NCBI RefSeq assembly: GCF_019635455.1
Contig: NZ_JAHBZJ010000002.1
Span: forward strand, 1 to 64,000
Length of the DNA: 64,000 bases
Direction of reading: 5' to 3'
Source: Sphingomonas sp.
Lineage (GTDB): Bacteria; Pseudomonadota; Alphaproteobacteria; Sphingomonadales; Sphingomonadaceae
Part shown: positions 8,356 to 30,375 of the stretch, one piece after another
Position numbering within the stretch: position 1 is the first letter of the stretch
Layout: each line of letters opens with the position of its first letter
Made by a program: the position numbers and the translations under genes
Notes under the pieces: generated by a model
Database searches by the model: none
What the model was told of the DNA's origin: nothing
What the model saw: only the letters and a program-made list of their open reading frames with translations

Positions 8356-8377
8356 AATATACGCAATGATGTATATT
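8356..8377. promoter_or_regulatory. Perfect 7-8-7 palindrome in the divergent sulfur promoter
   Basis: AATATAC (8356-8362), an 8-base spacer, and GTATATT (8371-8377) form a perfect inverted repeat. It lies 32 bases upstream of the rhodanese start and 30 bases upstream of the sulfide:quinone reductase start, so it sits centrally between both operons and over the likely promoter elements. Size and symmetry suit a dimeric winged-helix repressor; the ArsR-type gene at 3425-3739 is the obvious candidate. A GGGAGA ribosome site for the plus-strand gene is at 8395-8400. Confidence 0.7.
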
Positions 8378-8407
8378 CGTCAATTATAAATTACGGGAGA
8401 GATTTCC

Positions 8408-9688: not shown

Positions 9689-9699
9689 AAGGACCCGTC

Positions 9700-9903: not shown

Positions 9904-9915
9904 CGGGCGGCCCAC

Positions 9916-9993
9916 GGCCTCCGGCGCGCGTTCACCCGCGGCGCCATGACGGACCTGGACCGTCGGCGTAACGGTCGCGGTGCGCCGGAGGCC
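9916..9993. repeat. 12-bp perfect inverted repeat between convergent operons
   Basis: GGCCTCCGGCGC at 9916-9927 and GCGCCGGAGGCC at 9982-9993 are exact reverse complements with 54 bases between them. They fill the 99-base gap between the DUF2892 gene (plus) and cydC (minus), so a two-way transcription stop or RNA stem is likely. No T-run follows on either strand, so it is not a textbook intrinsic terminator. A smaller repeat, ACCGT/ACGGT, lies inside. Confidence 0.5.
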
Positions 9994-10002
9994 CCGCCGG
10001 CT

Positions 10003-13133: not shown

Positions 13134-13261
13134 GCGTCCCGATCGGCTATGCAGGGTGTTCGCGCAATGAGCAGTAAGGGAAATCCCGAATAGGCGCTCG
13201 CGGCACCCCTGCCTAGGTCGCCTATCGGACCCATCAATTCGCGAAAGCGGGGGAATTAGCT

Positions 13262-14845
13262 ATGGATATGGCCGTCGTCGAGCTGTCGAGACTGCAATTC
13301 GCACTGACAGCCTTGTACCATTTTCTGTTCGTGCCGCTCACGCTCGGCCTGTCGTTCATGCTCGTCATCATGGAGACGGTGTATGTGATGACCGACCGGC
13401 CGATATGGCGCGACATCACCCGCTTCTGGGGAAAATTGTTCGGCATCAACTTCGTGCTGGGCGTCGCGACCGGGCTGACCATGGAATTCCAGTTCGGCAC
13501 CAACTGGTCCTATTATTCGCATTATGTCGGCGACATTTTCGGCGCGCCGCTCGCGATCGAGGGGCTCATGGCCTTCTTCCTCGAGGCGACGTTCGTCGGG
13601 CTGATGTTCTTCGGCTGGGACCGGATGAGCAAGCGCATGCACCTGCTCACCACCTTCATGGTGGCGCTCGGCACCAACTTGTCGGCGGTGTGGATCCTGG
13701 TCGCCAATGGCTGGATGCAGCATCCCGCCGGTGCGGTCTTCAATCCCGAAACGATGCGGATGGAGGTCGTCGATTTCATGGCGGTGATCTTCAACCCGGT
13801 CGCCCAGGCGAAGTTCGTTCACACCGTGAGCGCAGGCTATGTCATCGCCAGCACCTTCGTGCTGGGCGTGTCCGCCTGGTATCTGCTGAAGGGCCGGCAT
13901 CTCGACATCGCCAAGCGCAGCTTCGCGGTCGCCGCCGCCTTCGGCATGGCCTCTGCCCTGTCGGTCGTCGTGCTGGGCGACGAGAGCGGCTATGCGCTGA
14001 CCGACAACCAGAAGATGAAGCTCGCCGCGATTGAGGCCGAATGGCATACCGAACCCGCGCCGGCCGGCATCGGCGTGTTCGGCCTGCCATCGAACACCGG
14101 CCGCGAAACGCTGTATGAGGTCAAGGTCCCCTATGTGCTGGGCCTCATCTCGACGCGCAGCCTGAGCGGACAGGTCGAAGGGATCTTCCCGCTGGTCGCC
14201 AAGGCAAAGCTGCGCATCCAGAACGGCCTGATCGCCTATGACGCCGTCGAACGGCTCAAGGCGAACCGCACCGACCCGTCCGCACGGGAAGCGTGGGAGC
14301 GGAACAAGGACGATCTGGGCTATGCGCTGCTGCTGAAACGCTGGGTCGCCGATCCGCGCAGCGCCGACGCCGCGACGATCGATCGCGCGGCATGGTCCAC
14401 CGTGCCGAACGTCCCGGCGCTGTTCTGGCTGTTCCGCGGCATGGCGGGTATTGGCTTCGCGCTCATCGCCTTCTTCGGCGCGGCGCTCTATTTCGCCAAT
14501 TCGCGCAAGTTCGACCGGCGCTGGTTCCTGCGGCTTGCCCTGTGGATGATGCCGCTGCCCTGGCTCGCCGCCGAACTGGGCTGGGCGGTCGCCGAGATCG
14601 GGCGCCAGCCCTGGGCGGTCGATGGCGTGCTGCCCACCTTCCTGGGCGCGTCGAGCCTCACGGTGCCGCAGATCTGGACGACGATCATCGGCTTCACGCT
14701 CCTCTATGGCGGCCTCGCCATCATTGAGGTGCGGCTGATGCTCGCGACGATCCGCAAGGGACCCGAACGCTATGTGCCGTGGCGGCCGGGGGCCGACGCC
14801 GCCGGCGACGCCCCCAATCCTCATCTCGCCGTTCCCGCCGAATAA
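13262..14845 (+). CDS. cydA: Cytochrome bd ubiquinol oxidase subunit I
   Basis: A 527-residue polytopic membrane protein. The N-terminal SRLQFALTALYHFLFVPLTL carries the His that binds a b-type heme; GLTMEFQFGTNW and FEGT-like helix text (AIEGLMAFFLEATFVGLMFF) give the conserved Glu/His region; the periplasmic quinol-binding loop includes SLSGQVEGIFP. The enzyme reduces oxygen to water with quinol and has high oxygen affinity, so it works in low oxygen and resists sulfide and nitric oxide. ATG at 13262 follows GGGGGAA; a second ATG is two codons on. First gene of cydABX. Confidence 0.96.
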   Translation: MDMAVVELSRLQFALTALYHFLFVPLTLGLSFMLVIMETVYVMTDRPIWRDITRFWGKLFGINFVLGVATGLTMEFQFGTNWSYYSHYVGDIFGAPLAIEGLMAFFLEATFVGLMFFGWDRMSKRMHLLTTFMVALGTNLSAVWILVANGWMQHPAGAVFNPETMRMEVVDFMAVIFNPVAQAKFVHTVSAGYVIASTFVLGVSAWYLLKGRHLDIAKRSFAVAAAFGMASALSVVVLGDESGYALTDNQKMKLAAIEAEWHTEPAPAGIGVFGLPSNTGRETLYEVKVPYVLGLISTRSLSGQVEGIFPLVAKAKLRIQNGLIAYDAVERLKANRTDPSAREAWERNKDDLGYALLLKRWVADPRSADAATIDRAAWSTVPNVPALFWLFRGMAGIGFALIAFFGAALYFANSRKFDRRWFLRLALWMMPLPWLAAELGWAVAEIGRQPWAVDGVLPTFLGASSLTVPQIWTTIIGFTLLYGGLAIIEVRLMLATIRKGPERYVPWRPGADAAGDAPNPHLAVPAE

Positions 14846-14869
14846 GCGAACGCAAAGCGGAGAAGACTC

Positions 14870-16009
14870 ATGCCTCTCGATTACGAAACGCTCCGTCTGA
14901 TCTGGTGGGTGCTGCTCGGCGTGCTGCTGATCGGTTTCGCCCTTACCGACGGGTTCGATCTCGGCACCGCCGCGCTGTTGCCGTTCATCGGCAAGACCGA
15001 TGCCGAACGCCGGATGGTCATCAATACGGTAGGCGCCACCTGGGAAGGGAACCAGGTCTGGTTCATCCTTGGCGGCGGCGCGATCTTCGCCGCATGGCCC
15101 TTCGTCTATGCGGTCAGCTTTTCCGGCTTCTACCTGGCGATGTTCCTGGTGCTGTCGGCGCTGATCCTGCGTCCGGTCGCGTTCAAATATCGCTCCAAAC
15201 ATGCCGATGCGGCATGGCGCAGCCGGTGGGACTGGGCGCTGTTCGTCGGCGGCTTCGTCCCGGCGCTGGTGTTCGGGGTCGCGGTCGGCAACGTGCTGCT
15301 CGGCATTCCCTTCCGCCTCGATAGCGACCTGCGCTCCTTTTACGACGGATCGCTGCTCGGGCTGTTCACCCCCTTCACGCTGCTGACCGGCCTCTTGTCG
15401 GTGGCGATGCTGGTGCTGCATGGCGCCGGCTGGCTGAGCCTGAAGGCCGATGGGGTCGTGCGCGAACGGGCGCAGCGCTGGGGGCAGGTCGCGGCGGTGC
15501 TGGCGATCGCGCTCTTTGCGATCGGCGGGATCTTCGTCGCCTATGCCGGCATGGGGCTGCGCATCGAAGGGGCGATCGATCCGAACGGCCCGTCCAATCC
15601 GCATTATGCCAATGCGGTCGCGGCGCCGGGTGCCTGGCTCGACAATTACGGCCGCCACCCCTGGATGCTGATCGCCCCGGTGCTCGGCTTCCTGGGGCCG
15701 GTGCTCGCGTGGCTCGGCATTCGCGGGCGGCGCGACCTCGTCGTCTTCGCCGGATCGAGCATCGCCAATATCGGCATCATCTCGACCGTCGGCCTCGCGA
15801 TGTTCCCGTTCATCCTGCCCAGCTCGATCGATCCGGGATCCAGCCTCACGGTCTGGACCGCGTCGTCCAGCCACCTCACCCTCTTCATCATGCTGGGGGT
15901 CACGATCGTCTTCCTGCCGATCGTGCTCGCCTATACCGCCTGGGCATATCGGGTGATGTTCGGCCGCGTGACCGATGAAGAGGTCCGCCTCAACCCCGAT
16001 TTCTACTGA
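14870..16009 (+). CDS. cydB: Cytochrome bd ubiquinol oxidase subunit II
   Basis: A 379-residue protein with nine or so hydrophobic helices, starting [20 protein letters not shown], followed by [18 protein letters not shown], the signature of CydB, and [20 protein letters not shown]. It forms the heterodimer with CydA. It begins 24 bases after cydA with a GGAGAAG ribosome site and is followed after 23 bases by cydX. Length matches the family. Confidence 0.96.
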
Positions 16010-16032
16010 TCGCTCGACAAGGGAGATTTCCG

Positions 16033-16149
16033 ATGTGGTATTTCGCATGGATCCTGGGCCTCGGCCTCGCCGTGAGCGTCTCGGTCCTCAACGGCATCTG
16101 GCACGAGTTCCAGACCGATACGACCCAGGACCAGACGGTCCTCGACTGA
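16033..16149 (+). CDS. cydX: Cytochrome bd accessory peptide CydX
   Basis: A 38-residue peptide, MWYFAWILGLGLAVSVSVLN followed by a charged tail beginning GIWHEF. It has one membrane helix, and the WYFAWxLG start and the NGIWHE-type end are exactly those of CydX/CbdX peptides, which stabilise the hemes of the bd oxidase. GGGAGA precedes the ATG. It lies between cydB and hemN in the same direction. It is short enough to be missed by automatic gene calling. Confidence 0.93.
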   Translation: MWYFAWILGLGLAVSVSVLNGIWHEFQTDTTQDQTVLD

Positions 16150-16171
16150 CCCGCACGCCGGACGCCCGACC

Positions 16172-17494
16172 ATGCACCGCTATCTTCCCGACCTGGCCGG
16201 GCGCGCCGTGCCGCGATACACCAGCTACCCGACCGCAGCGGAGTTCACCGATGCAGTCGGGGCGAGCGACGCCGATGCGGGGATCGCGGCGATCCGGCGG
16301 GGCGATGCGGTCTCGCTCTATCTGCACATCCCCTATTGCCACGCGATCTGCTGGTATTGCGGGTGCAATACCGGCGCGATCGGCCGGGCGGACCGGTTGC
16401 AGCACTATGTCGATGCGCTGCTCGCCGAGATCGAACGGGCCGGGCCGCGCTGCGCCGGCCGGATCGTTTCGGTGCATTTCGGCGGCGGCAGCCCCAATGC
16501 GCTGACCCCGCTTCAGCTCGCCTCGATCGGACAGGCGCTGCGCGCGCGGTTCGACTTTGCCCCCGACGCCGAATGGGCCGCCGAGATCGACCCACGCAGT
16601 TTCACGCCGGCGCATGCACACGCCTTCGCCGCGATCGGCGTGCGCAGGATCAGCGTCGGCGCCCAGACCTTCGCTCCCCATGTCCAGCGCGCGATCGGGC
16701 GCGTCCAGCCATTCGGGGTGGTGCGGCGCGCGATCGGCTTCGCACGCGACGCGGGGATCGCCCGCATCAATCTCGACCTGATGTACGGCCTGCCGGGCCA
16801 GGGCCTCGACGACATCGCCGAAACGGTCGCCCGCGCACGCACGCTGTCCCCGGACCGCGTCGCGATGTTCGGCTATGCGCATCTGCCGCGCCTGTTGCCG
16901 CGCCAGCGGATGATCGACGACGACGCGCTTCCCGACGCGCAATCGCGCTTCTGGCAAAGCGCGCTTGCCCACGATCTGCTGGTCGAACAGGGCATGGTCG
17001 CGATCGGATTCGATCATTTCGCGGCACCGGGCGACAGCCTGGCCGTCGCCGCCGAAGCCGGTCGCCTGCGCCGGAATTTTCAGGGCTTCACCGACGATCC
17101 CGCCACCGTCCTGATCGGACTGGGCGCGTCCGCGATCAGCCAGTTCGGCACCGCGATCGTCCAGAACGAAAAACATGTCGGCCGTTACCGCATGCTCGCC
17201 GCCAACGGCGTGTCGCCGGCGGTACGCGGGGTGCGCCGCGACGGCGACGACCTGCTGCGCGGCGCGGCGATCGAACGGCTGTTGTGCGACGGCGCGATCG
17301 ATCTCGATACGCTGCCGTTCCGCATCCGCCCGGACGAACGCCGCTGGATCGAACTGGTCGATGCGGGGATCGTCACCCGTTCGGGATCGCGGGTCGCGAT
17401 CACCCGAACCGGTCGCCCCTATGCGCGCCTTGCCGCAGTGCTGTTCGATCGCCATCGCGCGGCCGGCCCGGCACGGTTCAGCAAGGCGGTCTGA
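16172..17494 (+). CDS. hemN: Oxygen-independent coproporphyrinogen III oxidase (radical SAM)
   Basis: A 440-residue radical SAM enzyme. LYLHIPYCHAICWYCGC contains the CxxxCxxC cluster motif, with the extra Cys typical of HemN. VHFGGGSPNAL and EIDPRSFTPAH are further HemN landmarks, and the C-terminal domain is present (LIGLGASAISQFG). It decarboxylates coproporphyrinogen III to protoporphyrinogen IX without oxygen. It starts 22 bases after cydX, so heme supply and the heme-rich bd oxidase appear to be co-expressed, a sensible low-oxygen pairing. Confidence 0.94.
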   Translation: MHRYLPDLAGRAVPRYTSYPTAAEFTDAVGASDADAGIAAIRRGDAVSLYLHIPYCHAICWYCGCNTGAIGRADRLQHYVDALLAEIERAGPRCAGRIVSVHFGGGSPNALTPLQLASIGQALRARFDFAPDAEWAAEIDPRSFTPAHAHAFAAIGVRRISVGAQTFAPHVQRAIGRVQPFGVVRRAIGFARDAGIARINLDLMYGLPGQGLDDIAETVARARTLSPDRVAMFGYAHLPRLLPRQRMIDDDALPDAQSRFWQSALAHDLLVEQGMVAIGFDHFAAPGDSLAVAAEAGRLRRNFQGFTDDPATVLIGLGASAISQFGTAIVQNEKHVGRYRMLAANGVSPAVRGVRRDGDDLLRGAAIERLLCDGAIDLDTLPFRIRPDERRWIELVDAGIVTRSGSRVAITRTGRPYARLAAVLFDRHRAAGPARFSKAV

Positions 17495-17525
17495 CCCCCC
17501 TTTCCTTTCACGATATCGTCCACTC

Positions 17526-17562
17526 AAAAAGGGGGCGGCACCATCAGGCGCCGCGCCCTCCT
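17526..17562 (-). terminator. Intrinsic terminator of ompW
   Basis: Read on the minus strand, a GC-rich stem (GGGCGCGGC pairing, with a small bulge, to GCCGCCCC around a GCCTGATGGT loop) is followed by TTTTT at 17530-17526. It lies about 25 bases past the stop of ompW. It also faces the end of hemN, which ends at 17494 on the other strand. Confidence 0.75.
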
Positions 17563-17585
17563 TCTGCTTCGGGCGAACGGTCGCG

Positions 17586-18239
17586 TCAGAACCGCATGCC
17601 GATCCCCACGCCAGCGACGATCGGATCGAGGTGGAAGCGGGTGGTGTTGACCGCCCCACCGGTGGTCAGCCGCGCCTTCGTATCCATGTCGATATATTTG
17701 ACGTCGAGGTTGAGGAACATCTTCTCGTTCAGATCGATATCGACACCGGCCTGAACGGCATAGCCGAAGCTGTCGCCCAGCTTCACCTTGGTCGGGCCGA
17801 CCGCTGCGACCAGGTCCTTGCCCGCCTTGCTGTCGTAGAAGATCGTATAGTTGACGCCGACGCCGACATAGGGTCGCACCTTCGCTTCGGGCGCCAGGTG
17901 ATATTGCAGCGTCAGCGTCGGCGGCAGCGCCCAGGTGCTCGCAAGCTTCTCGACGCCGTTCAGCGCGCCGCGCCCCTTTGCCTCGTGCCGGGTGGTCGAT
18001 GCGATCAGTTCCAGCCCGATATTGTCGCTCACCATATAGGTGCCGTCGATTTCCGGCATGAACGCCGCGCCGACATCCGCCGATCCGGTGGGGAATCCCG
18101 GCTGAACCGAATCCGATCCGCCGGTCGGCGCGACCACGATCCCGCGCAGGCGGACGATGACGTCGCCTTCCTTGGCGAAGGCCGGGGCGGCGGTGGCGAT
18201 CAGCCCGCCAAGCGCGGCGGCGGCGATTAGTCTCTTCAT
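17586..18239 (-). CDS. OmpW-family outer membrane protein
   Basis: A 217-residue protein with a signal peptide (MKRLIAAAALGGLIATAAPA, cleavage near AFA-KE) and an OmpW-type beta-barrel: GDVIVRLRGIVVAPT in the first strand, NIGLELIASTTRHEAKG, LPPTLTLQYHL, VRPYVGVGVNYTIFYD, and a C-terminal strand ending VAGVGIGMRF with the terminal Phe recognised by the barrel assembly machine. OmpW forms a narrow barrel for small hydrophobic molecules; in several bacteria it is controlled by oxygen regulators. Placement between hemN and fixLJ fits that pattern. The ATG at 18239 was chosen for the signal peptide; the frame is open further upstream. Confidence 0.92.
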   Translation of the reverse strand: MKRLIAAAALGGLIATAAPAFAKEGDVIVRLRGIVVAPTGGSDSVQPGFPTGSADVGAAFMPEIDGTYMVSDNIGLELIASTTRHEAKGRGALNGVEKLASTWALPPTLTLQYHLAPEAKVRPYVGVGVNYTIFYDSKAGKDLVAAVGPTKVKLGDSFGYAVQAGVDIDLNEKMFLNLDVKYIDMDTKARLTTGGAVNTTRFHLDPIVAGVGIGMRF

Positions 18240-18364
18240 GACACTGTCCCTGTCTCTAGCGATGCGGATCAAGGCCGCGGCTGCGGTCTGGCTCCGGTGG
18301 CGCAAAGGCGGAATTGGGAGTTTTCCGGATGGTAGTTTCGCCTAGCCGGACTAGACTCCGGCGC

Positions 18365-19843
18365 ATGGACCCGGGGGATCACGATCCGCGTGCGGCTGCC
18401 GTCGCGCTGCTCGACGCCGATACGCGGCGCGGCGTGCTGGTCGTGGATGAGGGTGGCGCGATCCTGCACTGGAATGCCGGTGCGGCGGCGATCTTCAACC
18501 TGTCGCGGGACCAGGCAATGGGCGCCGACGCCGCGCGCTTCTTTCCGGGCGAGGCCGATTTTCCCGCCCGGTTGCGCGACGTCGCCGCTGCCGGCGCGCC
18601 GGTGCGGCAGGAATGGTGGCTGGTCCGCGCCGACCAGTCGGAATTTCTCGCCGATGTCCTGATCGCGTGCGCGGGCGATCGGTTCGCGATCGGCGTGGAC
18701 GATATCACCGATCGCCGCGCGGTCGCGCTGTCGCTGGCACGCAGCGAGGCGCATCTCGGATCGATCCTCGCCACCATCCCCGATGCGATGGTGGTGATCG
18801 ACGAGCGCGGATTGATCCAGTCGTTCAGCGCCGCCGCCGAACGGCTGTTCGGCTATCGCCAGGTCGAACTGATCGGGAAGAATATCAGCCAGCTGATGCC
18901 CGATGGCGACCGCGCCCGGCATGACGACTATATCGCCCATTACCGCCGCACCGGGGAAAAGCGCATCATCGGCACCGGCCGCATCGTGGTCGGCCGGCGC
19001 CGCGACGGCACCGAATTTCCGCTGGAACTGGCGGTCGGCGAAACCCGGATGGAGGGACACCGGCTGTTCACCGGCTTCATCCGCGATCTCACCGAACAGC
19101 AACAGGCCGAATTGCGGCTCAAACAGCTTCAATCCGAACTCATCCACATCTCGCGGGTCAGTGCGATGGGGACGATGGCATCGACCATCGCGCACGAATT
19201 GAACCAGCCCCTGGCGGCGATCGCCAATTACATGGAGGCGAGCGGCGACCTGCTCGCGCGCGGCGACGCGGATCCCGAACTGTTGCGCGAAGCCGTCGGC
19301 CAGTCGGCGAGCGAGGCGTTGCGCGCCGGAGGGATCGTGCGCCGGCTGCGCGATTTCGTCGCCCGCGGCGAGGTCGCGCGTGAGGTGGAGAGCCTGCCCG
19401 CACTGATCGCCGACGCCAGCCGCCTGGCGCTGATCGGCGCGCGCGAACGCGGCGTGCGGGCGCTGTTCGATCTCGATCCCGATGCCGAACTGGTGCTGGT
19501 CGATCGGGTCCAGATCCAGCAGGTGATCGTGAACCTGGTCCGCAACGCGGTGGAGGCGGTCGATGGCCAGCGCGTCCGCGACATCACCCTCATCTCCCGC
19601 CGCGTCGATCCCGACCGGGTCCAGGTGACCGTGGCCGATACCGGCGATGGAATCGCCGCGGAGGTTCGCGAGCGCCTGTTCGAGGCGTTCAATTCCAGCA
19701 AGGAACGTGGCATGGGGTTGGGCCTGTCGATTTGCCGGACGATCGTCGAGGCGCATGGCGGGCGCATCTGGGCCGAGGACGTCGCCGGTGGCGGCACGGC
19801 CTTTCACTTCACTCTGGAAAGCGGGACTGTCGATCATGACTGA
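18365..19843 (+). CDS. fixL: Oxygen-sensing histidine kinase FixL (heme PAS)
   Basis: A 492-residue sensor: PAS domain (about 15-115), second heme PAS (about 125-240), then HisKA with STIAHELNQPLAAIANY (phospho-acceptor His277) and an HATPase with VNLVRNAVEAV and GMGLGLSICRTIVEAHGG. The second PAS has RARHDDYIAHYRRTG and IIGTGRIVVGRRRDG. The first His (H186) fits the FixL heme ligand and the Arg 20 residues later (R206) the oxygen-sensing Arg, the same 20-residue spacing as His200 and Arg220 in Bradyrhizobium FixL. No transmembrane segment is seen, so it is soluble. The ATG at 18365 was chosen; upstream codons lack domain character. It overlaps fixJ by 8 bases. Confidence 0.93.
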   Translation: MDPGDHDPRAAAVALLDADTRRGVLVVDEGGAILHWNAGAAAIFNLSRDQAMGADAARFFPGEADFPARLRDVAAAGAPVRQEWWLVRADQSEFLADVLIACAGDRFAIGVDDITDRRAVALSLARSEAHLGSILATIPDAMVVIDERGLIQSFSAAAERLFGYRQVELIGKNISQLMPDGDRARHDDYIAHYRRTGEKRIIGTGRIVVGRRRDGTEFPLELAVGETRMEGHRLFTGFIRDLTEQQQAELRLKQLQSELIHISRVSAMGTMASTIAHELNQPLAAIANYMEASGDLLARGDADPELLREAVGQSASEALRAGGIVRRLRDFVARGEVAREVESLPALIADASRLALIGARERGVRALFDLDPDAELVLVDRVQIQQVIVNLVRNAVEAVDGQRVRDITLISRRVDPDRVQVTVADTGDGIAAEVRERLFEAFNSSKERGMGLGLSICRTIVEAHGGRIWAEDVAGGGTAFHFTLESGTVDHD

Positions 19844-20498
19844 CGCGCGCGTCGTTCACATCGTTGATGACGAGGAGTCGGTTCGCCGATCGGTCGGCTT
19901 CCTGCTCAAGACGTCGGGCTTCACCACCCATGCGTGGGATTCGGGAACCGCGTTTCTGCGCCAGGCGAAACATGCCGAGCCAGGCTGCGTACTGCTCGAT
20001 CTGCGGATGCCGGAGATGGACGGGCTGGAGGTGCAGCGCCGGTTGAACGCAGCCGGCGTCGCGCTGCCCGTCATCCTGCTCACCGGCCATGGCGACGTGT
20101 CGAGCGCGGTGGCGGCGATGAAGGAGGGGGCGGTCGATTTCCTCGAAAAGCCGTTCGAAAAGGCGCGGCTGATCCAGGCGCTCGACACCGGTTTTGGCAA
20201 GCTCGAACAGAGCCACGCCGCCGACCTTGCCGCGCACGAGGCGGAAACCCGCCTCGCCGCGCTGACCCCGCGCGAACGCGAGGTGCTGGCGGGGCTGGTC
20301 GCGGGACAGCCGAACAAGACGATCGCCTTCGATCTGGGCATCAGCGCCCGTACCGTCGAGGTGCATCGCGCCAATGTGATGACGAAACTGGGCGTGCGCA
20401 GCCTGTCCGAAGCGCTGCGCATCGCTTTTGCCGCCGGGCTGGGCGGACCGCCGGCGGACGCCGGCATGCCGGATGCGCACCCTAGGGACATTCCGTAG
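19836..20498 (+). CDS. fixJ: Two-component response regulator FixJ
   Basis: A 220-residue regulator: receiver (1-125) with VVHIVDDEESVRRSVGFLL, phospho-acceptor D55 in VLLDLRMPEMDG, Thr in LLTGHGDVSSAV and Lys in FLEKPFEK; then a LuxR-type helix-turn-helix (LTPREREVLAGLVAGQPNK, ISARTVEVHRANVMTKL). The TPREREVL and HRANVMTK wording is that of FixJ. It would receive phosphate from FixL when oxygen is low and activate transcription of microaerobic genes; cydABX, hemN, ompW and the peptide cluster are the nearby candidates. The start overlaps the fixL end by 8 bases. Confidence 0.94.
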   Translation: MTDARVVHIVDDEESVRRSVGFLLKTSGFTTHAWDSGTAFLRQAKHAEPGCVLLDLRMPEMDGLEVQRRLNAAGVALPVILLTGHGDVSSAVAAMKEGAVDFLEKPFEKARLIQALDTGFGKLEQSHAADLAAHEAETRLAALTPREREVLAGLVAGQPNKTIAFDLGISARTVEVHRANVMTKLGVRSLSEALRIAFAAGLGGPPADAGMPDAHPRDIP

Positions 20499-20553
20499 CG
20501 ACGATCCGCCGTCGGCGCGGCAGGGTGGGATGCGTTGTCCGGAGAGATGCCCC

Positions 20554-20934
20554 ATGCCCGTCCTTCACGCCGACCCCATGTCCGCGCCATCCGACCGCGT
20601 CCTGCTGGTCGAGGATGACGATGCCGTCCGCCGATCGATCCACCTGCTGCTTCATGGCCGCGGATATGATGTCAAATCCTATTCCGGCGCGGCGATGGTG
20701 GTCGGCGACGGCGACGCCGAACGGGCCGGCTATCTGATCACCGATTACCGGCTGGCCGATGGCGATGGCATCGGCGTGCTGCGCGGCCTTCGTCGGCGCG
20801 GCTGGCACGGACGCGCGGTGCTGGTGACGGGTCATTACAGCGACACGCTGTGCGCGGCGGCGCTGGCCAGCGGGTTCGACGCGGTTCTCGAAAAGCCGCT
20901 CAAACAGGGGCAGCTTCTCGCCGCGCTCGCCTGA
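20554..20934 (+). CDS. Stand-alone receiver-domain protein
   Basis: A 126-residue protein made only of a response-regulator receiver: VLLVEDDDAVRRSIHLLLHG, phospho-acceptor D64 in LITDYRLADGDGIG, Thr in AVLVTGHYSD and Lys in VLEKPLKQGQLLAAL. There is no DNA-binding or enzyme part. It lies 55 bases after fixJ in the same direction, with GGAGAG before the ATG at 20554. Single receivers near fixLJ, such as FixJ-like decoys or FixT-type inhibitors, can act as phosphate sinks or feedback proteins; its role here is not known. It is separated by 66 bases from the peptide-synthetase cluster. Confidence 0.85.
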   Translation: MPVLHADPMSAPSDRVLLVEDDDAVRRSIHLLLHGRGYDVKSYSGAAMVVGDGDAERAGYLITDYRLADGDGIGVLRGLRRRGWHGRAVLVTGHYSDTLCAAALASGFDAVLEKPLKQGQLLAALA

Positions 20935-21000
20935 GCGCGGATCGCGCAAAAATCCGTCGTCGTTAATCCGATGAATACCGCTGCGGCGTAAGTGGGCGGC

Positions 21001-22848
21001 ATGACCCAAGCCTCCACCGCGCTGCCCGCATCGCCCCATGGCGACTCCGCAACCTCGCGCCATGGACATGGCGCACCGCCATTCGCGGTCCATGCCGCGA
21101 TCGCCGCGCATGCCGCCACGGATCCGCAGCGCGTCGCGCTGAACGCGGCATGCGGTACGCTCAGCTATGGCGAACTTGACGCGCGCGCCACCCGCTTGGC
21201 CGCGTGGATGCGGGACAAGGGCGTGACGCCGGGAACGCTGGTCGGCCTGTGCCTCGAACGTTCGTTCGATCAGATCACCGCCGCGCTTGCCGCGTGGAAA
21301 GCGGGCGCCGCCTATCTGCCGCTTGATCCGGCATGGCCCGACGGGCGCTTGCGCACCATCGCCGCCGATGCGGGCTGCGCGCTGTTGCTGGGCCGCGCCG
21401 ACACCGCCGATCGCCTGCCCGGTCTTCCCGATCTTCACGTCCTCGACTGGGATGCGGTCCCGACCTCCGCCGGTGCGCCGGTCGCGCCCGACAGCGACGC
21501 GCTCGCCTATGTCATCTACACATCCGGCACCACCGGAACGCCAAAGGGCGTCGAGGTGACCCATGCCAATCTGTCGCACCTGATCGCGTGGCACAATGAC
21601 GCGTTCGGCATCACTGCCGAGGATCGTGGCAGCCATCTTGCCGGGCTCGGCTTCGACGCCTCTGCGTGGGAGGTCTGGCCCTATCTCGCCGCTGGCGCAT
21701 CGGTCGCGCTCGCGCCCGACGATATCCGCACCTCGGATACGCTGTTGCGCGCGTGGCTGCTGGTACAGGGGATCACCGTCGCGTTCGTGCCGACCCAGCT
21801 TGCCCAGGACCTGATCCGCGACGATTGGGCGCGGGGCAGTTCCTTCCGCCTTCTCCTCACCGGCGCGGACCGGCTGGTCGAGCGTCCGCGCGCCGGCCTC
21901 TCCTTCGCGCTGGTCAACAATTACGGCCCGACCGAATGCACCGTCGTCGCGACATCCGCCGTCGTTCCCGACGGCGGGGTCGAGCGCGGCCTGCCCGCGA
22001 TCGGGCGACCGGTGGGCGAAACCGTCATCCGCATCCTCGACGCCGGCGGCCAGCCGGTCGCGGACGGCGCATCGGGCGAACTCTTCATCGGCGGCCCGCA
22101 GGTTGCGCGCGGCTATCGCGGTCAGCCCGAGCTGACCGCCGCGCGCTTCGTGACGATCGATGGCGCACGCTTTTACCGCACCGGCGATCTCGGCGCCTGG
22201 CTGCCGGACGGACAGATCGCGTTTCAGGGCCGCATCGACGACCAGGTGAAGGTCCGCGGTCATCGCGTCGAGCCTGAGGAAACCGCGAGCGTGGTGCGTA
22301 CCCATCCGCTGGTCCGCGCCGCGGCGGTCGTCGCCGCGCCGGGTGCCGATGGCGGCGACATGCTGGTCGCCTATGTGGTGCCGGCCGGCGAGATCGAGGC
22401 CGAAACGCTGCGCGACTTCCTGGCGCAAACGCTGCCCGACTACATGATTCCCGGGGCCTATGTCCGCCTCGACGCGCTCCCGCTCACCGCCAACGGCAAG
22501 CTCGACAAGCGCGCGCTGCCGGCGCCCAGCGCGGCCAATTCGCTCGCCTCGGCGGGGTTCGCGGCGCCGGAGACGCCCGCCGAACAGCGGCTCGCCGAAA
22601 TCCTCGAACAGGTGCTCGGGCGCGGCAATGTCGGGATCGACGACAATTTCTTCCTGCTCGGCGGCCACTCGCTGCTCGGCACGCAGGTCGTCCTGCGCGC
22701 GGGGGAAGCGTTCGGACTCGACCTCGCGCTCCGCGATATCTTCGTCGCACCGACCATCCGGCAACTCGGCGCGCTGATCGAGGAGCGGCTGATCGCGATG
22801 ATCGAGGCGATGAGCGACGACGAGGTTCGTTCGCGCGCCGGCCAATAG
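21001..22848 (+). CDS. NRPS initiation protein, adenylation plus carrier domains (predicted Leu)
   Basis: A 615-residue A-T protein with no condensation domain. Adenylation motifs in order: LSYGELDARA, VIYTSGTTGTPKGVEV, LGFDASAWEVWPYL, VNNYGPTECTVV, FYRTGDLGAWLPDG, VKVRGHRVEPEE, LTANGKLDKRAL. The carrier motif is DNFFLLGGHSLLG with phosphopantetheine site S557. Lining up the binding-pocket positions by eye with gramicidin synthetase GrsA gives D-A-W-F-L-G-N-V-V-K, a known leucine code. The protein should load Leu onto its own carrier for a downstream partner. Next comes the P450 gene after 22 bases. ATG 21001 was chosen over a GTG three codons earlier. No MbtH-like gene is seen nearby. Confidence 0.93.
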   Translation: MTQASTALPASPHGDSATSRHGHGAPPFAVHAAIAAHAATDPQRVALNAACGTLSYGELDARATRLAAWMRDKGVTPGTLVGLCLERSFDQITAALAAWKAGAAYLPLDPAWPDGRLRTIAADAGCALLLGRADTADRLPGLPDLHVLDWDAVPTSAGAPVAPDSDALAYVIYTSGTTGTPKGVEVTHANLSHLIAWHNDAFGITAEDRGSHLAGLGFDASAWEVWPYLAAGASVALAPDDIRTSDTLLRAWLLVQGITVAFVPTQLAQDLIRDDWARGSSFRLLLTGADRLVERPRAGLSFALVNNYGPTECTVVATSAVVPDGGVERGLPAIGRPVGETVIRILDAGGQPVADGASGELFIGGPQVARGYRGQPELTAARFVTIDGARFYRTGDLGAWLPDGQIAFQGRIDDQVKVRGHRVEPEETASVVRTHPLVRAAAVVAAPGADGGDMLVAYVVPAGEIEAETLRDFLAQTLPDYMIPGAYVRLDALPLTANGKLDKRALPAPSAANSLASAGFAAPETPAEQRLAEILEQVLGRGNVGIDDNFFLLGGHSLLGTQVVLRAGEAFGLDLALRDIFVAPTIRQLGALIEERLIAMIEAMSDDEVRSRAGQ

Positions 22849-22870
22849 CACGACCAAATTGGGGGCAATC

Positions 22871-24133
22871 ATGACCATCCAGTCCAGCATGACCGGCGCC
22901 ACACCCGCGCCGTTCGACCCGAGCCTCAGCCTGTTCCAGCTGCTCGATCCCGCCGTCCATGCCGACCCCTATCCCTTCTACCGGCGCCTGCGCGAGCAAG
23001 CGCCGGTGATGTGGGACCCGTTCATGCACACCTGGGTCGTCACGCGGTACGACGACGTGATGCTGGTGCTGAAGGAATTTTCGGCCGACCGCACGCCCGA
23101 TCCCAAGAAGATGGAGGCGCTCGGCCTGCCTTCGCTTGGACCGGTGGCGGACCTGATGGCACGGCAGATGCTGTTCCTCGACGCGCCTGCCCATACCCGC
23201 CTGCGCAAATTGTGCATGAGCGCGTTCACCCCGCGCCGGGTCGAGGCGATGGAGGGCAAGATCCATGAGATCGCCCACAGCCTGATCGACGCCCAGATCG
23301 CGCGCGGCGAGATGGACCTGATCGCCGATTTCGCCGAACCCTTTCCCGCGATCGTCACCGCCGGTCTGCTCGGCGTGCCGCTGGAGGATCACCGCCAGCT
23401 CAAGGCCTGGTCGGCAACCTTCGCGGAAATGCTCGGCAACTTCCAGCACAACCCCGATCGCATCCACGGCGTCCTGAAATGCGTCGCCGACATGACCGGA
23501 TATTTCCGCGACGCGGTGCGCGAACAGGAGCGCAATCCGCATGACGGCCTGATCCGCTCGCTGATGGACGCCGAAGTCGATGGCCAGCGCCTGTCCGAGG
23601 AAGAGGTGATCGCCAACACCATCGTCACCATGGTCGGCGGTCAGGAAACGACCACCAACCTGATCGGCAGCGGCATCCTGACCCTCACCCGCCAGCCCGA
23701 CAAGCTGGCACAGCTGCGCGACAATCCCGACATTATCGAAACCGCGCTGGAGGAACTTCTGCGGTTCGAAACGCCCAGCCAGCACACCGCGCGCATCGCC
23801 CGCCACGATGTCGAACTGGGGGGGCAGACGATCCGCAAGGGCGATGCGGTGATGGCGATCATGGCGGCGGGCAATCGCGACCCGGACCGTTTCCCCGATC
23901 CCGACACGCTCGACCTGACCCGCACCGACAATCGTCACCTCGCATTCGGCTGGGCCGCGCATTTCTGCTTCGGCGCGGCGCTCGCGCGGATGGAGGGGCG
24001 CACCGCCTACACCGCGCTGCTCGGCCGGCTGGGCGACCTGCGCGTCACGGCGGACAAGCTCGAATGGCGTGCCAATTCCGGGTTGCGCGGCCTGGCGGAA
24101 CTGCCGGTCGCGTTTCGGGAGATCGCGGCGTGA
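22871..24133 (+). CDS. Cytochrome P450, candidate carrier-bound amino acid hydroxylase
   Basis: A 420-residue bacterial class P450: I-helix VGGQETTTNLIG (acid-alcohol pair), ExxR motif in EELLRFETP, and the heme loop FGWAAHFCFGAALAR with the thiolate ligand C366. The third residue of the loop is Trp-Ala-Ala rather than the usual Gly, a mild departure. It lies between the A-T protein and the second NRPS protein and overlaps the latter by GTGA, so it is translated with it. P450s in the A-T, P450 arrangement (as in novobiocin and nikkomycin assembly) beta-hydroxylate an amino acid while it is tethered to the carrier. Beta-hydroxylation of Leu is the natural inference. A GGGGG ribosome site precedes the ATG. 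Confidence 0.9.
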   Translation: MTIQSSMTGATPAPFDPSLSLFQLLDPAVHADPYPFYRRLREQAPVMWDPFMHTWVVTRYDDVMLVLKEFSADRTPDPKKMEALGLPSLGPVADLMARQMLFLDAPAHTRLRKLCMSAFTPRRVEAMEGKIHEIAHSLIDAQIARGEMDLIADFAEPFPAIVTAGLLGVPLEDHRQLKAWSATFAEMLGNFQHNPDRIHGVLKCVADMTGYFRDAVREQERNPHDGLIRSLMDAEVDGQRLSEEEVIANTIVTMVGGQETTTNLIGSGILTLTRQPDKLAQLRDNPDIIETALEELLRFETPSQHTARIARHDVELGGQTIRKGDAVMAIMAAGNRDPDRFPDPDTLDLTRTDNRHLAFGWAAHFCFGAALARMEGRTAYTALLGRLGDLRVTADKLEWRANSGLRGLAELPVAFREIAA

Positions 24134-27100
24134 ACGCGCATGTGGCGCTGAGCGACTCCAAGCGCGCGCTGCTCGAAAAGATGATGCGCGGCGGCGGCGC
24201 GGCGGCGGCCGCGAAGCCGCTCGCGATCCAGAAGCGCGATCCGGCGGCGACGATCCCGCTTTCCGCCGACCAGCGTCAGGTGTGGCTGCACGCCATCATG
24301 GCGCCGGACATGCCGCTCTATAACGAATCGATCACCATCCACCGGTTCGGCAGTTTCGACCGCGCGGCGATGGCGCGCGCGGTCAACGAAATCCTGCGCC
24401 GGCACGAGGCATGGCGCACCGGCTTCGTCGAACAGGACGGCGTCCTGATCCAGATGGTGCGCCCGCACCGCGACCTCGACCTCCCCTTCGACGATGTCAG
24501 CCACCTGCCCGAAGCCGAGCGCGACGCCGCCGCGCTGAAGATCGGCAGCGACGATGCGCGGCGTGCCATCGACCTGTCGGACGCGCCGCTGTTCCGCGCG
24601 CGGATCGTGAAGCTCGCCGACGACAATCACCGCCTCTATTTCACGCTGCACCACATCATCTTCGACGGCGTATCGATCTATCGCGTGATCGTCCCCGAAC
24701 TGGCGGCACTCTATGAAGCCTTTGCCGCCGGGCGTGCCTCGCCGCTGCCGGATCCGACGCTGCAATATGGCGACTATACGCTGTGGCAGGCCGATTATCT
24801 TCAAACCCCGGCGATCCGCCGTCAGGTCGATTACTGGCGGGACACGCTCGCCGATGCTCCGCCCAAGCTCGAACTGACCGGCGATCGCGCAAAGCCCGCG
24901 CGCCCGACCCATGCCGGATCGATGGAAACCTTCCTCATCCCGCTCGACCTGATCGAGAAGGTGCAGGAGATGAGCCGGCGCGAGAGCGTCACCCCCTATA
25001 TGACGCTGCTCGCCGCCTATCATGCGATGCTGCACCGCTATTCGGGGGAAGAGGACATCATCGTCGGCGGTGTCACCGATCTGCGGCGTCGCCCCGAGCT
25101 CGAGAATGTGGTCGGCTATTTCCTCAACACCATCGCGCTGCGGGCCAGGCCGACCGGCGACAAGCCGTTCCGCGCCTTTCTGTCTGAAGTGCGCGACAGC
25201 GTGCTGGGCGCGCTCGCCGCCAGCGAAGCGCCGTTCGACGAAGTGGTGCGCGCGCTCGACATCCGGCGCGAGCCGGGCGCCCATCCGCTGTTCAACTGCC
25301 TGTTTTCAATCGAACCCCCAGTCGATCCCTTTCCCGCAGGCTGGGACCTGACCCAGATGGACGTGGTGGTCGGCGGCGCGAAGTTTGACCTCTATCTCGA
25401 ACTCGACGAGCGGCCCGACGGCATGCTCGGCCGCTTCCTCTATTCGACGGAGCTGTTCGACGCCGCCACGATCCGTCGGATGATCGGCCATTGGCTGACG
25501 ATCATCGCCCGCATCGTCCAGGACCCGTCCACGCCTCTGCGCGACCTGCCACTGCTCGACCCGGTCGAGGAGGCGACGCTGGCGACCATGTGGAACCACA
25601 CGGACGCGCCGGCGCCGGCCCTGCTCCCCGACGCCTTCCGCGCACAGGTCGTGGCGCATCCGGACGCGCCGGCGATCCGGTACGACGGCGCGACCACCAG
25701 CTATGCCGCGCTCGACGCCCGCGCCGATGCGATCGCCGCCGCGCTGCGCGCCGCCGGCCTGGACAAGGGGGACCTGGTCGGCGTCTGCCTCGACCGCACG
25801 CCCGATATGGTCGCGGCGCTGTTCGCGACGCACCGGATCGGCGCGGCCTATCTGCCGCTCGATCCCGATTTTCCCGCCGCGCGGCTCGACTATATCGTCG
25901 CCGATGCCGGCGCGGCGGCGCTGCTGACCGAGCACGCATTGGGCGACGTCCTGCCCGGCTGCACCCTGCCGCGCATCTTCGTCGATCAGGTCGGCCCCGT
26001 CGGCACGACCGTCGCATCGACGCCGACCGCGCCCGACGACCTTGCCTATGTCCTCTACACCTCCGGCTCGACCGGCAATCCCAAGGGGGTGGAGATCGAT
26101 CAGGGCGCGCTCGCCAATCTGCTCGGCTCCTTTGCCCGCGAACCGGGGTTCGGCGCCGGCGATTCGCTGCTGGCGGTCACGACGCTCTCGTTCGACATCG
26201 CCGCGCTCGAACTCTTCCTGCCGCTCGTCGCGGGCGGTGAGCTGATCCTCGCCACGCGTGCCGTCGCGAAGGACCCCTATGCCCTGAGCGCGCTGATCGC
26301 CGAGGCGCGGCCGACCGTGATGCAGGCGACGCCTGCGACCTGGCGCGGACTGATCGAAACCGGCTGGACCGGGCTTCCCGGCCTGCGCATCCTGTGCGGG
26401 GGCGAAGCGCTGCCGCGCAGCCTTGCCGACCAGCTCATGCCGCGCTGCGCGGAGCTGTGGAACGTCTATGGCCCCACCGAAACCACGATCTGGTCGACGA
26501 GCGCCCGCGTCGAAGCGGGTGAAGGACCGGTCCCGATCGGCCGGCCGATCGCCAATACGTCGGTTCATGTCCTCGACGCGCATCACAATCGGATGCCGAT
26601 CGGCCAGATCGGCGAATTGTGGATCGGCGGTGCGGGTCTCGCGCGCGGGTATCGCGGGCGCCCGGACCTGACCGAAGAGCGGTTCGTCACCATCGGCGGC
26701 GCACGTCTCTACCGCACCGGCGACCTTGCGAAATGGACGCCCGCCGGCGCGCTGATGTGCCTCGGCCGGACCGACAATGACGAGAAGATTCGCGGCTATC
26801 GCGTCGCGGTGGAGGAGATCGAGGGCGCGCTCGCCCGCCATCCCGACATCGCCGCCGCTGCGGTGCGCAGCTGGCCCGATGCATCGGGCGAGCGATCGCT
26901 GGCCGCCTATCTTGTTCCGCATGGCGAGATGCCGGGCCGCGCCGCGCTGCGCATGCACCTTGCCGCCAGCCTCCCCGACTACATGATCCCCGCGCATTTC
27001 GAGTCGCTGGCACAGCTGCCGATGACGCCCAACCGCAAGGTCGATCGCAAGGCGCTGCCGCGGCCGGGTGGCACCGCCGCTGCCGATCTGACTCCGCCAC

Positions 27101-28125
27101 GGGGCGAGGACGAAGCGCGTCTCGCCACGATCTGGTGCGACCTGCTGCGTATCGAGCGGATCGGGCGGGACGACAATTTCTTCGAACTTGGCGGACATTC
27201 GCTGCTCGTCGCCAAACTGCTGGTCGCGATCGACCGCGAATGGGGCCGGCGGATCGGCATGGCGGAGATCTTTCGCGCGCCGACGCTGCGCGCGCTCGCC
27301 GCGCAGATCGCCGGTGGCGGGGCGAGCGACCTGCATGCCTTCGTCCCGATCCAGCCGGACGGAGACGGCATCCCGATGATCTGGCTCGACGGCGGTCCGC
27401 GCTTTCAGGCGCTGGCCCAGCGGCTGGGCGGCGACCGCCCCTTTTACGGACTTCAGCTCGGCCCGATCCTCGAGGCGATACTGACGCCCGACACCCGGTT
27501 CGAGGAGATCGCCGCCGCCGTCGTCGCGATCATCCGGCGCAATCGGCCGCGCGGCCCCTATCTGCTCGGCGGATGGTGTACCAACGGCATCCTCGCCTAT
27601 GAGGTCGCGCGGCAGTTGCGTGCCGCCGGCGAAGACGTGCCGCTGCTGGCACTCGGCCATTCGATCAATCCGGTCTCCTTTCTGGCGATCACGCCCGCGC
27701 GGATGCGCATCGCTAAGGCGCGCTATCATCTCGCCATGTGGAACCGCCTGCCCCTGGCGCAGCGCCTCACCTATGCGATGGACCGGGCGCGCGGGGTGAT
27801 GGAGGATGTCGGCGCGCCCGAAGCGACGCACGACAATCCCAATTTCGAGCGCGTCACGCGCGGCCTCGAGCGTGCCGCCTATGGCTATGTCCCCGGCCCC
27901 TATGACGGTGCGCTCGCGCTGTTTCAGCCCGCCGACCGGCTGAGCGTCCTCGACACCGCACCGGGCTGGCGTCCGCTCGCCCATGGCGCGTTCGAGGTCC
28001 ACGATATCCCCGGCACGCATGACGATCTGGTCGATCCACCGCATGTCGATGTCTTTGCCGCGCGGATGCGCGAGGCGATCGATCGCGCGATCGATCCCGC
28101 ACGCGTCGTGGCCGCCGCCGCGTGA
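24130..28125 (+). CDS. NRPS module C-A-T with unusual thioesterase (predicted Gly)
   Basis: A 1331-residue protein. Condensation (about 35-470): HHIIFDG at 174-180 is the catalytic HHxxxDG. Adenylation (about 500-975): YVLYTSGSTGNPKG, SFDIAALELFLPL, VYGPTETTIW, LYRTGDLAKW, pocket read by eye as D-I-L-Q-L-G-V-I-W-K, one step from the known glycine code DILQLGLIWK. Carrier: DNFFELGGHSLL with S1024. Thioesterase (about 1055-1320): YLLGGWCTNGILAYEVA has Cys1150 in place of the usual Ser; His1177 stands exactly where the catalytic Asp of SrfA-TE is (27 residues on); IPGTHDDLV gives the catalytic His1297. Start is the GTG overlapping the P450 stop. It overlaps the PPTase by GTGA. It would join the hydroxy-Leu unit to Gly and release or cyclise the product. 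Confidence 0.93.
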   Translation: MNAHVALSDSKRALLEKMMRGGGAAAAAKPLAIQKRDPAATIPLSADQRQVWLHAIMAPDMPLYNESITIHRFGSFDRAAMARAVNEILRRHEAWRTGFVEQDGVLIQMVRPHRDLDLPFDDVSHLPEAERDAAALKIGSDDARRAIDLSDAPLFRARIVKLADDNHRLYFTLHHIIFDGVSIYRVIVPELAALYEAFAAGRASPLPDPTLQYGDYTLWQADYLQTPAIRRQVDYWRDTLADAPPKLELTGDRAKPARPTHAGSMETFLIPLDLIEKVQEMSRRESVTPYMTLLAAYHAMLHRYSGEEDIIVGGVTDLRRRPELENVVGYFLNTIALRARPTGDKPFRAFLSEVRDSVLGALAASEAPFDEVVRALDIRREPGAHPLFNCLFSIEPPVDPFPAGWDLTQMDVVVGGAKFDLYLELDERPDGMLGRFLYSTELFDAATIRRMIGHWLTIIARIVQDPSTPLRDLPLLDPVEEATLATMWNHTDAPAPALLPDAFRAQVVAHPDAPAIRYDGATTSYAALDARADAIAAALRAAGLDKGDLVGVCLDRTPDMVAALFATHRIGAAYLPLDPDFPAARLDYIVADAGAAALLTEHALGDVLPGCTLPRIFVDQVGPVGTTVASTPTAPDDLAYVLYTSGSTGNPKGVEIDQGALANLLGSFAREPGFGAGDSLLAVTTLSFDIAALELFLPLVAGGELILATRAVAKDPYALSALIAEARPTVMQATPATWRGLIETGWTGLPGLRILCGGEALPRSLADQLMPRCAELWNVYGPTETTIWSTSARVEAGEGPVPIGRPIANTSVHVLDAHHNRMPIGQIGELWIGGAGLARGYRGRPDLTEERFVTIGGARLYRTGDLAKWTPAGALMCLGRTDNDEKIRGYRVAVEEIEGALARHPDIAAAAVRSWPDASGERSLAAYLVPHGEMPGRAALRMHLAASLPDYMIPAHFESLAQLPMTPNRKVDRKALPRPGGTAAADLTPPRGEDEARLATIWCDLLRIERIGRDDNFFELGGHSLLVAKLLVAIDREWGRRIGMAEIFRAPTLRALAAQIAGGGASDLHAFVPIQPDGDGIPMIWLDGGPRFQALAQRLGGDRPFYGLQLGPILEAILTPDTRFEEIAAAVVAIIRRNRPRGPYLLGGWCTNGILAYEVARQLRAAGEDVPLLALGHSINPVSFLAITPARMRIAKARYHLAMWNRLPLAQRLTYAMDRARGVMEDVGAPEATHDNPNFERVTRGLERAAYGYVPGPYDGALALFQPADRLSVLDTAPGWRPLAHGAFEVHDIPGTHDDLVDPPHVDVFAARMREAIDRAIDPARVVAAAA

Positions 28126-28772
28126 ACGCCCCCGCACGGATCAACCGCGCGGCCGTCGAAACCGTGCTGCTCGACCTGCGGGCCGAACCGCATCTGGTGA
28201 GCCGTTGGCACGCGATGATCGGCCGCGACGAACGCGCCCATGCCGCCCGGATCCGCGACCCGCGCGCGCGCGATCGCTTTATCGCCCGCCGCGCGCGCCT
28301 GCGCGAAACGCTCGCCGTGCGGCTCGGCCAGGCGCCGGAGGAGGTGCGGATCGAACCCGATCCGAACGGAAAGCTCGTCCTGCCCGATGCGCCGTGGCTG
28401 CACTTCAACCTGTCCAGTTCGCACCATCTGGCGCTCGTCGCGCTCGCCGACGTGCCGGTCGGCTGCGACATTGAATTTCGCGACGGCGCGCTGGCCTGTC
28501 CAAAGGTCGCCGAACGCCTGTTCTCCGCGCGTGAGGTGGATGAACTGCGCGCGCTGCGACCCGACCAGTGGGCGACCGGATTCTACAATGTCTGGACCCG
28601 GAAGGAGGCGTATGTGAAGGCGCTCGGCCTTGGCCTGTCCTATCCGCTCGACCGGTTCGACGTGACCGTGACGCCCGGCGCGCCGGCCGCGATCACGCGC
28701 GGTGGCGAGGGGTGGCGGTTGCTGTCGTTTCAGCCGGCGCCGGACTTTCAGGCGGCGGTCGCGATCGGTTGA
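28122..28772 (+). CDS. Sfp-type 4'-phosphopantetheinyl transferase
   Basis: A 216-residue protein with the Sfp signatures: LHFNLSSSHHLALVAL, VGCDIEFRD (Mg-binding Asp and Glu) and FYNVWTRKEAYVKALGLGL (the WxxKEA motif). It attaches the coenzyme A arm to the carrier serines of both synthetase proteins. The GTG start at 28122 overlaps the NRPS stop (GTGA), making the enzyme the last gene of the cluster. It ends 25 bases inside the end of a convergent flippase gene. Confidence 0.92.
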   Translation: MNAPARINRAAVETVLLDLRAEPHLVSRWHAMIGRDERAHAARIRDPRARDRFIARRARLRETLAVRLGQAPEEVRIEPDPNGKLVLPDAPWLHFNLSSSHHLALVALADVPVGCDIEFRDGALACPKVAERLFSAREVDELRALRPDQWATGFYNVWTRKEAYVKALGLGLSYPLDRFDVTVTPGAPAAITRGGEGWRLLSFQPAPDFQAAVAIG

Positions 28773-30238
28773 ACCCGCGGCGCCGGCTGGCGGCCCCGCA
28801 CGACCGCGACCGCTTCGCTCAACACGTCGCCGGCAAAGGCCGCGAGCCATCCGAAATAGGCGATCCCGCCGACGCTGACCAGCCACGCCAGGTGCAGCGG
28901 CGCGGAGGGCAGCGCGACGAACCGGTCGGCCAGCATCACGATGCCGCCCATCGCCAGCGCCGCCAGTACCACCGGCTCCAGCGTGCGGGCGAGCAGCGAG
29001 GCGCGCAGGCCGATCACCGGCAGCGCGCGCCAGGCGGTGATCGCCAGCAGCGCGGCATAGGCGGCGATCCACGAGGCGGCGAGGCCTGCCACGCCCCAGA
29101 CGAGGCCGACCGCGAAACAGGCGGGCAACAGCATCGCGCCGATCATGCCCGTCTTTGCCGCGATGCCCGGACGCCCCATCGCGCCGCATGCGGGCGCGAA
29201 CAGCACCTGCAACGTCATCGCCGGCATCGCGATCGCGACCAGGCGGACGATCGGCCCCGCCGCGATCCATTTGGGTCCCAATACCGTCGCCACGACCGGC
29301 TCCGCCGCGACCGCCAGCCCGACATAAAAGGGCATGGCGACCAGCATCACCATCCGCGCGGACCGGGCAAACCCCATCGCGACCGCATCCCGGTCATCCT
29401 GCATCCGCGCATAGACCGAAAAGGCGACATCGTTGATCGCCGGCACGAATTTCGAAACCAGGATCTGGGTCAGGAACAGCGCGGTGGTATATAGGCCCAG
29501 CGTCGTGGGGCTGAGCACACGCCCGGCCAGAAACACGTCGGCCTGGCTCTGCACCACCCAGAAAAACTGTCCCGCCGCCATCAGCCCGCCGAATTTCGCC
29601 AGCGCGCCAGCGCCGCGAAAATCGAACAGCGGGCGATAATGGTGGCCCGAAATGCGCGTCATCCCGATCGCCCGCGTCGTGAACAGCACGGCGGGGGCAA
29701 GGATCAGCGTCCAGACCCCCAGCCCGGCGAACGCGCCGGCAAGCGCCGCGAGCGCTCCGGTGATCGACGACAGGAAATAGACCTTTGCCTGCGGCTTGAA
29801 ATCGATCGCGCGCGCCAGCAGGGCATAGGGGAAAGCCACGAAGGGCGTCGTGAAATAGAGGAACGCCTGCACGCGCAGCAGATCCGCGACGATCGGCTGG
29901 CGGAAATAGGCGGCGACCAGCGGCGCCATCAGGAACTGGAGCAGGCCCAACCCGAAATTGAGCGCGATCAACATGCCATAGAGTTGCCGGATCGACCGTT
30001 CGTCAGCCTCCGGCTTCTGGATCAGCCCGCTCGCCAGTCCCGCGCCGTTCAGCATGTTGAGCACGGTCAGCACCACCTGCGTCATCGCGAACAGGCCGTA
30101 ATCGTGCGGATCGAGGATGCGGATGACGAGGAACGTCGCGCCCCAGGTGATGACCTGTCCGGCGATCTGCGCGCCCGAACGCCAGATCACCGCCTGCCGC
30201 GCGAGCGCGAAGGCGGTGGACGGCTTTTCCGACGGCAT
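28748..30238 (-). CDS. Wzx-like polysaccharide flippase (MATE/PST superfamily)
   Basis: A protein of about 496 residues with 12 or more hydrophobic helices and the Wzx/PST opening (WRSGAQIAGQVITWGATFLV, ILDPHDYGLFAMTQVVLTVL) and later FWVVQSQADVFLAGRVLSPT. Such proteins flip lipid-linked sugars, less often other amphiphiles, across the inner membrane. Its 3' end overlaps the PPTase gene convergently, so it is not part of that operon; use in exporting the peptide product is possible but unsupported. The ATG at 30238 with GAGGG upstream was preferred; ATGs at 30256 and 30265 are alternatives. No glycosyltransferases are close. Confidence 0.85.
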   Translation of the reverse strand: MPSEKPSTAFALARQAVIWRSGAQIAGQVITWGATFLVIRILDPHDYGLFAMTQVVLTVLNMLNGAGLASGLIQKPEADERSIRQLYGMLIALNFGLGLLQFLMAPLVAAYFRQPIVADLLRVQAFLYFTTPFVAFPYALLARAIDFKPQAKVYFLSSITGALAALAGAFAGLGVWTLILAPAVLFTTRAIGMTRISGHHYRPLFDFRGAGALAKFGGLMAAGQFFWVVQSQADVFLAGRVLSPTTLGLYTTALFLTQILVSKFVPAINDVAFSVYARMQDDRDAVAMGFARSARMVMLVAMPFYVGLAVAAEPVVATVLGPKWIAAGPIVRLVAIAMPAMTLQVLFAPACGAMGRPGIAAKTGMIGAMLLPACFAVGLVWGVAGLAASWIAAYAALLAITAWRALPVIGLRASLLARTLEPVVLAALAMGGIVMLADRFVALPSAPLHLAWLVSVGGIAYFGWLAAFAGDVLSEAVAVVRGRQPAPRVQPIATAA

Positions 30239-30375
30239 CGAACCCTCACGCGACATGGACCGCATATCGCGCGACGGCGATTAAGGGCGCGTAAACCGAA
30301 CAACGTCGCGCAACCGGCCGCTGGACGATGGGCGCGGCGCACGGCATGGCGTGCGCGAATCGAGGAAGGGACGCA

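Follow-up and report, generated by a model that had tools for sequence, protein, structure and literature searches.

Four co-directional genes at 20992–28772 (+) of the window, by which we mean the whole stretch of 64,000 nucleotides of Sphingomonas sp. DNA that was analysed, belong to a conserved and uncharacterised but conventional family of nonribosomal peptide synthetases (NRPS) with an unusual thioesterase (TE) active site; they are no new kind of system. It is well supported that this two-module line makes an oxidised Leu–Gly dipeptide and releases it by means of the unusual TE, and the reading of the whole as one dedicated dimodular NRPS unit is probable. The open reading frames, together with Pfam/NCBIfam domains, bear out the preliminary description of an A-T protein, a P450, a C-A-T-TE protein and an Sfp-type 4'-phosphopantetheinyl transferase (PPTase) in a row (Table 1). 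Its account of the genes proved correct and its chemistry is plausible; the convergent MOP flippase gene that follows the cluster was absent from its gene list.

Table 1. Features of the cluster and of the adjoining flippase gene, with positions in the window.
Feature	Position	Strand	Basis and remarks
A-T didomain loading protein, 616–618 aa	20992..22848	+	Pfam PF00501/PF13193/PF00550; same place in related loci
Cytochrome P450, 420 aa from ATG	22871..24133	+	Pfam PF00067; TTG start at 22859 possible
C-A-T-TE module, 1331 aa, GTG start	24130..28125	+	Pfam; codes; motifs
Type I TE domain: Cys1150 (GGWCTNG), His1177 at position I, Asp1269 as candidate position II, catalytic His1297	27328..28122	+	Family alignment
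Sfp/HetI-type PPTase, GTG start	28122..28772	+	PF01648
MOP/PST (Wzx-type) flippase, convergent, overlaps the PPTase stop	28748..30265	-	PF13440

The core motifs are intact in the A, C, T and TE domains, with a single C-domain motif, HHIIFDG, and the four reading frames of the window are all open. The last three genes had been described as joined by GTGA overlaps, and both overlaps were found, at 24130–24133 (P450/C-A-T-TE) and 28122–28125 (C-A-T-TE/PPTase); the A-T and P450 genes do not overlap. With the start of the A-T protein placed at the ATG at 21001, the residue numbering used before is reproduced, and the two carrier serines named there, Ser557 of the A-T protein and Ser1024 of the C-A-T-TE protein, are both present in the translation.

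Motif alignment to GrsA gave the codes DAWFLGNVVK for the first A domain (A1) and DILQLGVIWK for the second (A2), which, from established code knowledge, we take to specify Leu and Gly, respectively. The canonical Gly code is DILQLGLIWK. Over the 33 loci of the family these codes hardly vary: A2 reads DILQLG[VML]IWK in every member, and wherever A1 can be read it is DAWFLGNVVK, apart from single changes in L054 and L075. Leu and Gly, the building blocks proposed earlier, therefore agree with codes that are near-invariant. Other A-domain matches in the strain's own genome (3.15 Mb, 99.98% complete) reach at most 34% identity and have the appearance of acyl-CoA ligases, and the cluster appears to be the only recognisable NRPS of that genome. 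The genome has only one other ACPS-family gene, of a size consistent with AcpS, and no MbtH partner was found in it. With both codes conserved family-wide and no other NRPS seen in the genome, the proposal of a dipeptide scaffold from a two-module line holds, and we regard a Leu–Gly scaffold as highly probable.

A scan of genome contigs yielded 80 loci, and the same gene set was present at 32 of them (L039–L069 and L075). Its carriers include Stakelama, Sphingomonas (among them S. mali, S. pruni, S. asaccharolytica and S. koreensis), Hephaestia, Novosphingobium, one Croceibacterium MAG and Rhodospirillales MAGs. At L052 and L055 the contig end falls inside the cluster, the PPTase is missing at L044 and L045, and no PPTase match was found at L067; the P450 lies between the A-T and C-A-T-TE genes wherever the locus sequence covers it. 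About 32 other loci show this gene order, which excludes a chance arrangement; a one-off or decaying cluster was likewise rejected, given the recurrence of the set and the four open frames. The pairwise distances of the A-T, P450 and C-A-T proteins from 23 loci are correlated (r = 0.945–0.961, Mantel p = 0.001), and the P450 changes most slowly, with a mean divergence of 0.26, followed by C-A-T (0.35) and A-T (0.40). These correlated distances, together with the near-invariant codes and the slow P450, indicate that the cluster behaves as one inherited unit.

Within the bacterial family the distribution is patchy, a close TE occurring in 7 of 398 genomes, the window's own included. A class-wide sample of 385 genomes contained, besides that of the window, one P450 of >43% identity, which is flanked by A/T and C frames. 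Apart from one further member of the class whose gene neighbours are the same, plasmid and class-wide searches returned intact copies only within the group. The preliminary description had called the cluster unfamiliar. This stands in so far as literature searches, of incomplete coverage, found no named product for the gene set; it does not stand in the sense of an isolated oddity, 32 more loci having the same set. Three Cyclobacterium species (L077, L080 and L081) have in common a synthetase of 2971 aa, the last module of which is a distant relative (30–31%) of the C-A-T-TE protein.

In the assembly that we propose, the PPTase would turn both carriers into their holo form, and the A-T protein would activate L-Leu and then hold it on its own carrier. 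The tethered leucyl group would be oxidised by the P450, most likely to β-hydroxy-Leu, a product favoured because the oxidation of a carrier-bound aminoacyl group beside a free-standing A-T protein has a precedent in NovH/NovI. The C domain of C-A-T-TE, the protein on which Gly would be loaded, would then use this aminoacyl carrier as its donor in trans; the observations that bear on such a condensation are the coupling of the genes and the correlated distances of their proteins. The hydroxyleucyl-glycyl chain would finally be passed to Cys1150 of the TE and released.

The heme motif FGWAAHFCFG and the I-helix motif GGQETTT of the P450 are intact and invariant in the family, whose P450s share 60–93% identity. 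Its nearest solved relative, by sequence (~36% identity) as well as by fold, is P450BioI in its complex with acyl-ACP, an enzyme that cleaves acyl-ACP and likewise takes a carrier-borne substrate. However, the substrate here would be aminoacyl rather than long-chain acyl, and C–C cleavage is not expected. The best 60 of 400 matches of the window P450 did not include P450sky or OxyD. The closest plasmid relative, at 41%, comes from a FAAL–PKS–NRPS line on the Nostoc plasmid pNLP2 (L141). That locus (5633–19712) holds a FAAL–P450–PKS–NRPS cluster that also encodes a vanadium haloperoxidase; its P450 stands after the FAAL and before the PKS and NRPS. The likeness to BioI–ACP and the FAAL-linked relative support a carrier-tethered substrate, but they do not fix the position that is oxidised. 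Of the hydroxy-Leu suggested earlier, the Leu is upheld by its code, whereas hydroxylation is what we infer, the nearest solved P450 being the ACP-bound BioI. Oxidation of Leu by the P450 is very likely and its occurrence at the β carbon, judged by analogy, is fairly probable; desaturation in place of hydroxylation is possible.

A free-standing A-T protein plus a P450 is the classic route to a modified amino acid, and NovH and NovI hold back an amino-acid pool. The window has the same A-T didomain beside a P450 that, by this analogy, would act on the tethered amino acid. The arrangement would equally suit an A-T/P450 pair that mainly makes free oxidised Leu or a derivative of it, with C-A-T-TE drawing on another donor. 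We find this quite improbable: the P450 and C-A-T-TE genes overlap, the distances of all three proteins correlate, the A-T protein lacks a TE that could release the residue, and the cluster shows no recurrent alternative starter enzyme. The A-T protein appears instead to feed its C-A-T-TE partner directly, which sets it apart from NovH/NovI, as do its amino acid (Leu here, Tyr there) and a P450 to which, in the PDB comparison, BioI is closer than P450sky. For the free-standing A-T/P450 arrangement, PMC13200230 cites Chen & Walsh 2001, and it also lists precedents for the β-hydroxylation of PCP-bound residues.

The TE had been called unusual, which can now be made specific as a Cys nucleophile, Cys1150, combined with His1177 at the position usually held by the catalytic Asp. 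In the family alignment the nucleophile is Cys in 30 of 30 sphingomonad-type members (GGWC[TS][NSA]G, with one AGWCTNG), and His stands in all 30 at position I, where type I TEs have the catalytic Asp after β6. Alignment and AlphaFold model (pLDDT 88.7 for the TE) together place an Asp or Glu, again in 30 of 30, two residues past the modelled strand β7; the catalytic His is kept. The solved domains nearest to it by sequence and fold are the skyllamycin TE, AB3403, Pks13 and NocB, the skyllamycin terminal TE (PDB 7CRN/7DXO) and the AB3403 TE being the nearest among solved NRPS TEs. AB3403 shares the Cys nucleophile but retains Asp at position I (PMC11298585), where the window TE has His. Other sphingomonad Cys TEs also retain this Asp, and Cys alone therefore does not account for the change at position I. 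A Cys TE with the motif GGWCRWG also occurs in two further synthetase genes of sphingomonads, L017 and L093; L017 has Asp at position I, and the A domain code of L093 is DLIQLGVVWK.

Among solved NRPS TEs, an acid after β7 (position II) is reported only for SulM and ObiF1, both of which use Cys; in SulM this Cys favours ring closure over hydrolysis, and the C2818S change switches the enzyme to hydrolysis (PMC11298585). The window TE has a Cys nucleophile like the two and no acid at position I; as far as alignment and model can tell, its candidate acid in the loop after β7 may correspond to theirs. The likeness would nevertheless be one of arrangement only, as the window TE has an invariant His at position I and is distant in sequence and fold, SulM and ObiF not being among its best 50 Foldseek matches; in that comparison it stands nearer to the skyllamycin TE, AB3403 and NocB. 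That the TE closes a strained lactone as ObiF and SulM do, which its Cys, its lost position-I acid and its invariant acid after β7 might suggest, is in our view very improbable: in those enzymes the attacker is the β group of the last residue, which the Gly predicted from the A2 code does not have, and a seven-membered ring through the hydroxyl of the first residue would be the only possibility.

On the C-A-T tree, a supported branch (96/92) separates the Cys members from the rest. Two deep relatives, L067 (TE at 12187–13083) and L075 (TE at 12199–13029), have a canonical Ser TE with the motif GYSFGG on an A-T/P450/C-A-T line with identical or near-identical codes, and so present a natural TE domain swap. 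L066 (Rhodospirillales MAG, 7683–13029) has no TE at all, its C-A-T frame stopping just before the PPTase gene. Thus the release step has varied, whereas the predicted scaffold has stayed the same.

We favour an intramolecular release by the free amine, which would give cyclo(hydroxyLeu-Gly), with a calculated mass of 186.100 Da; we rank a lactone and the linear dipeptide, for which 204.111 Da is calculated, below it. The diketopiperazine is a tentative assignment, the linear dipeptide a rather doubtful one, and any other product is as doubtful. The TE-less L066, which retains C-A-T and the PPTase, is consistent with a chain able to leave by itself, and, since diketopiperazines can form without a TE, the strongly conserved Cys TE may serve another purpose. 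It might transfer the chain to an external amine or alcohol, for instance one on a lipid or sugar carrier that the flippase moves, or make a cyclic depsipeptide out of two hydroxyLeu-Gly units, the dipeptide being then only a building block. An unusual active site in which Cys and the position-I His are both invariant would suit such a reaction, as would flippases of the polysaccharide-lipid type, which are linked to the cluster in two subfamilies. We nevertheless hold it to be unlikely, since neither acceptor-making genes nor glycosyltransferase genes were seen repeatedly next to the cluster and about half of the members have no flippase, L063 having an MFS gene and L059 an ABC-2 gene nearby.

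The flippase adjoins the cluster at 16 of the 33 loci. Flippases are common in the bacterial family, being present in 149 of the 398 genomes, but in the tree the cluster-adjacent copies (L120 is the one beside the cluster of G156) form two clades of their own. The linkage is thus real in those lineages without being universal, and a chance neighbour was rejected on the same grounds; a role in export is plausible. No other neighbour gene recurs widely among the family loci. On the other side of the cluster, at 18314–20934 (+) and 57 bp before the A-T gene, there are genes for a FixL-like PAS histidine kinase, a FixJ-like regulator and a lone receiver protein, themselves preceded by cydAB-like and hemN-like genes. 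In this strain only, an oxygen-linked two-component system may control the cluster, or the cluster may be read through from it. The FixL/FixJ and receiver genes were rejected as a conserved part of the cluster, since they are not kept beside other members.

It is a speculative and not very likely possibility that this TE, with Cys as nucleophile, His in place of the acid and an acid behind β7, is a distinct catalytic variant carrying out a release reaction undescribed for NRPS dipeptides, either small-ring closure or transfer, and that its product stands for a new class of signalling or defence compounds of sphingomonads. The cluster is conserved in sphingomonads that are common in soil, in water and on plants, yet its product has not been found. 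With four genes in 7.8 kb, it is small enough for complete reconstitution in vitro or in E. coli. The family's natural Cys/His, Ser and TE-less versions share one predicted Leu–Gly line, so that comparing them would test directly how the nucleophile of the TE and the placement of its acid decide between hydrolysis and ring closure.
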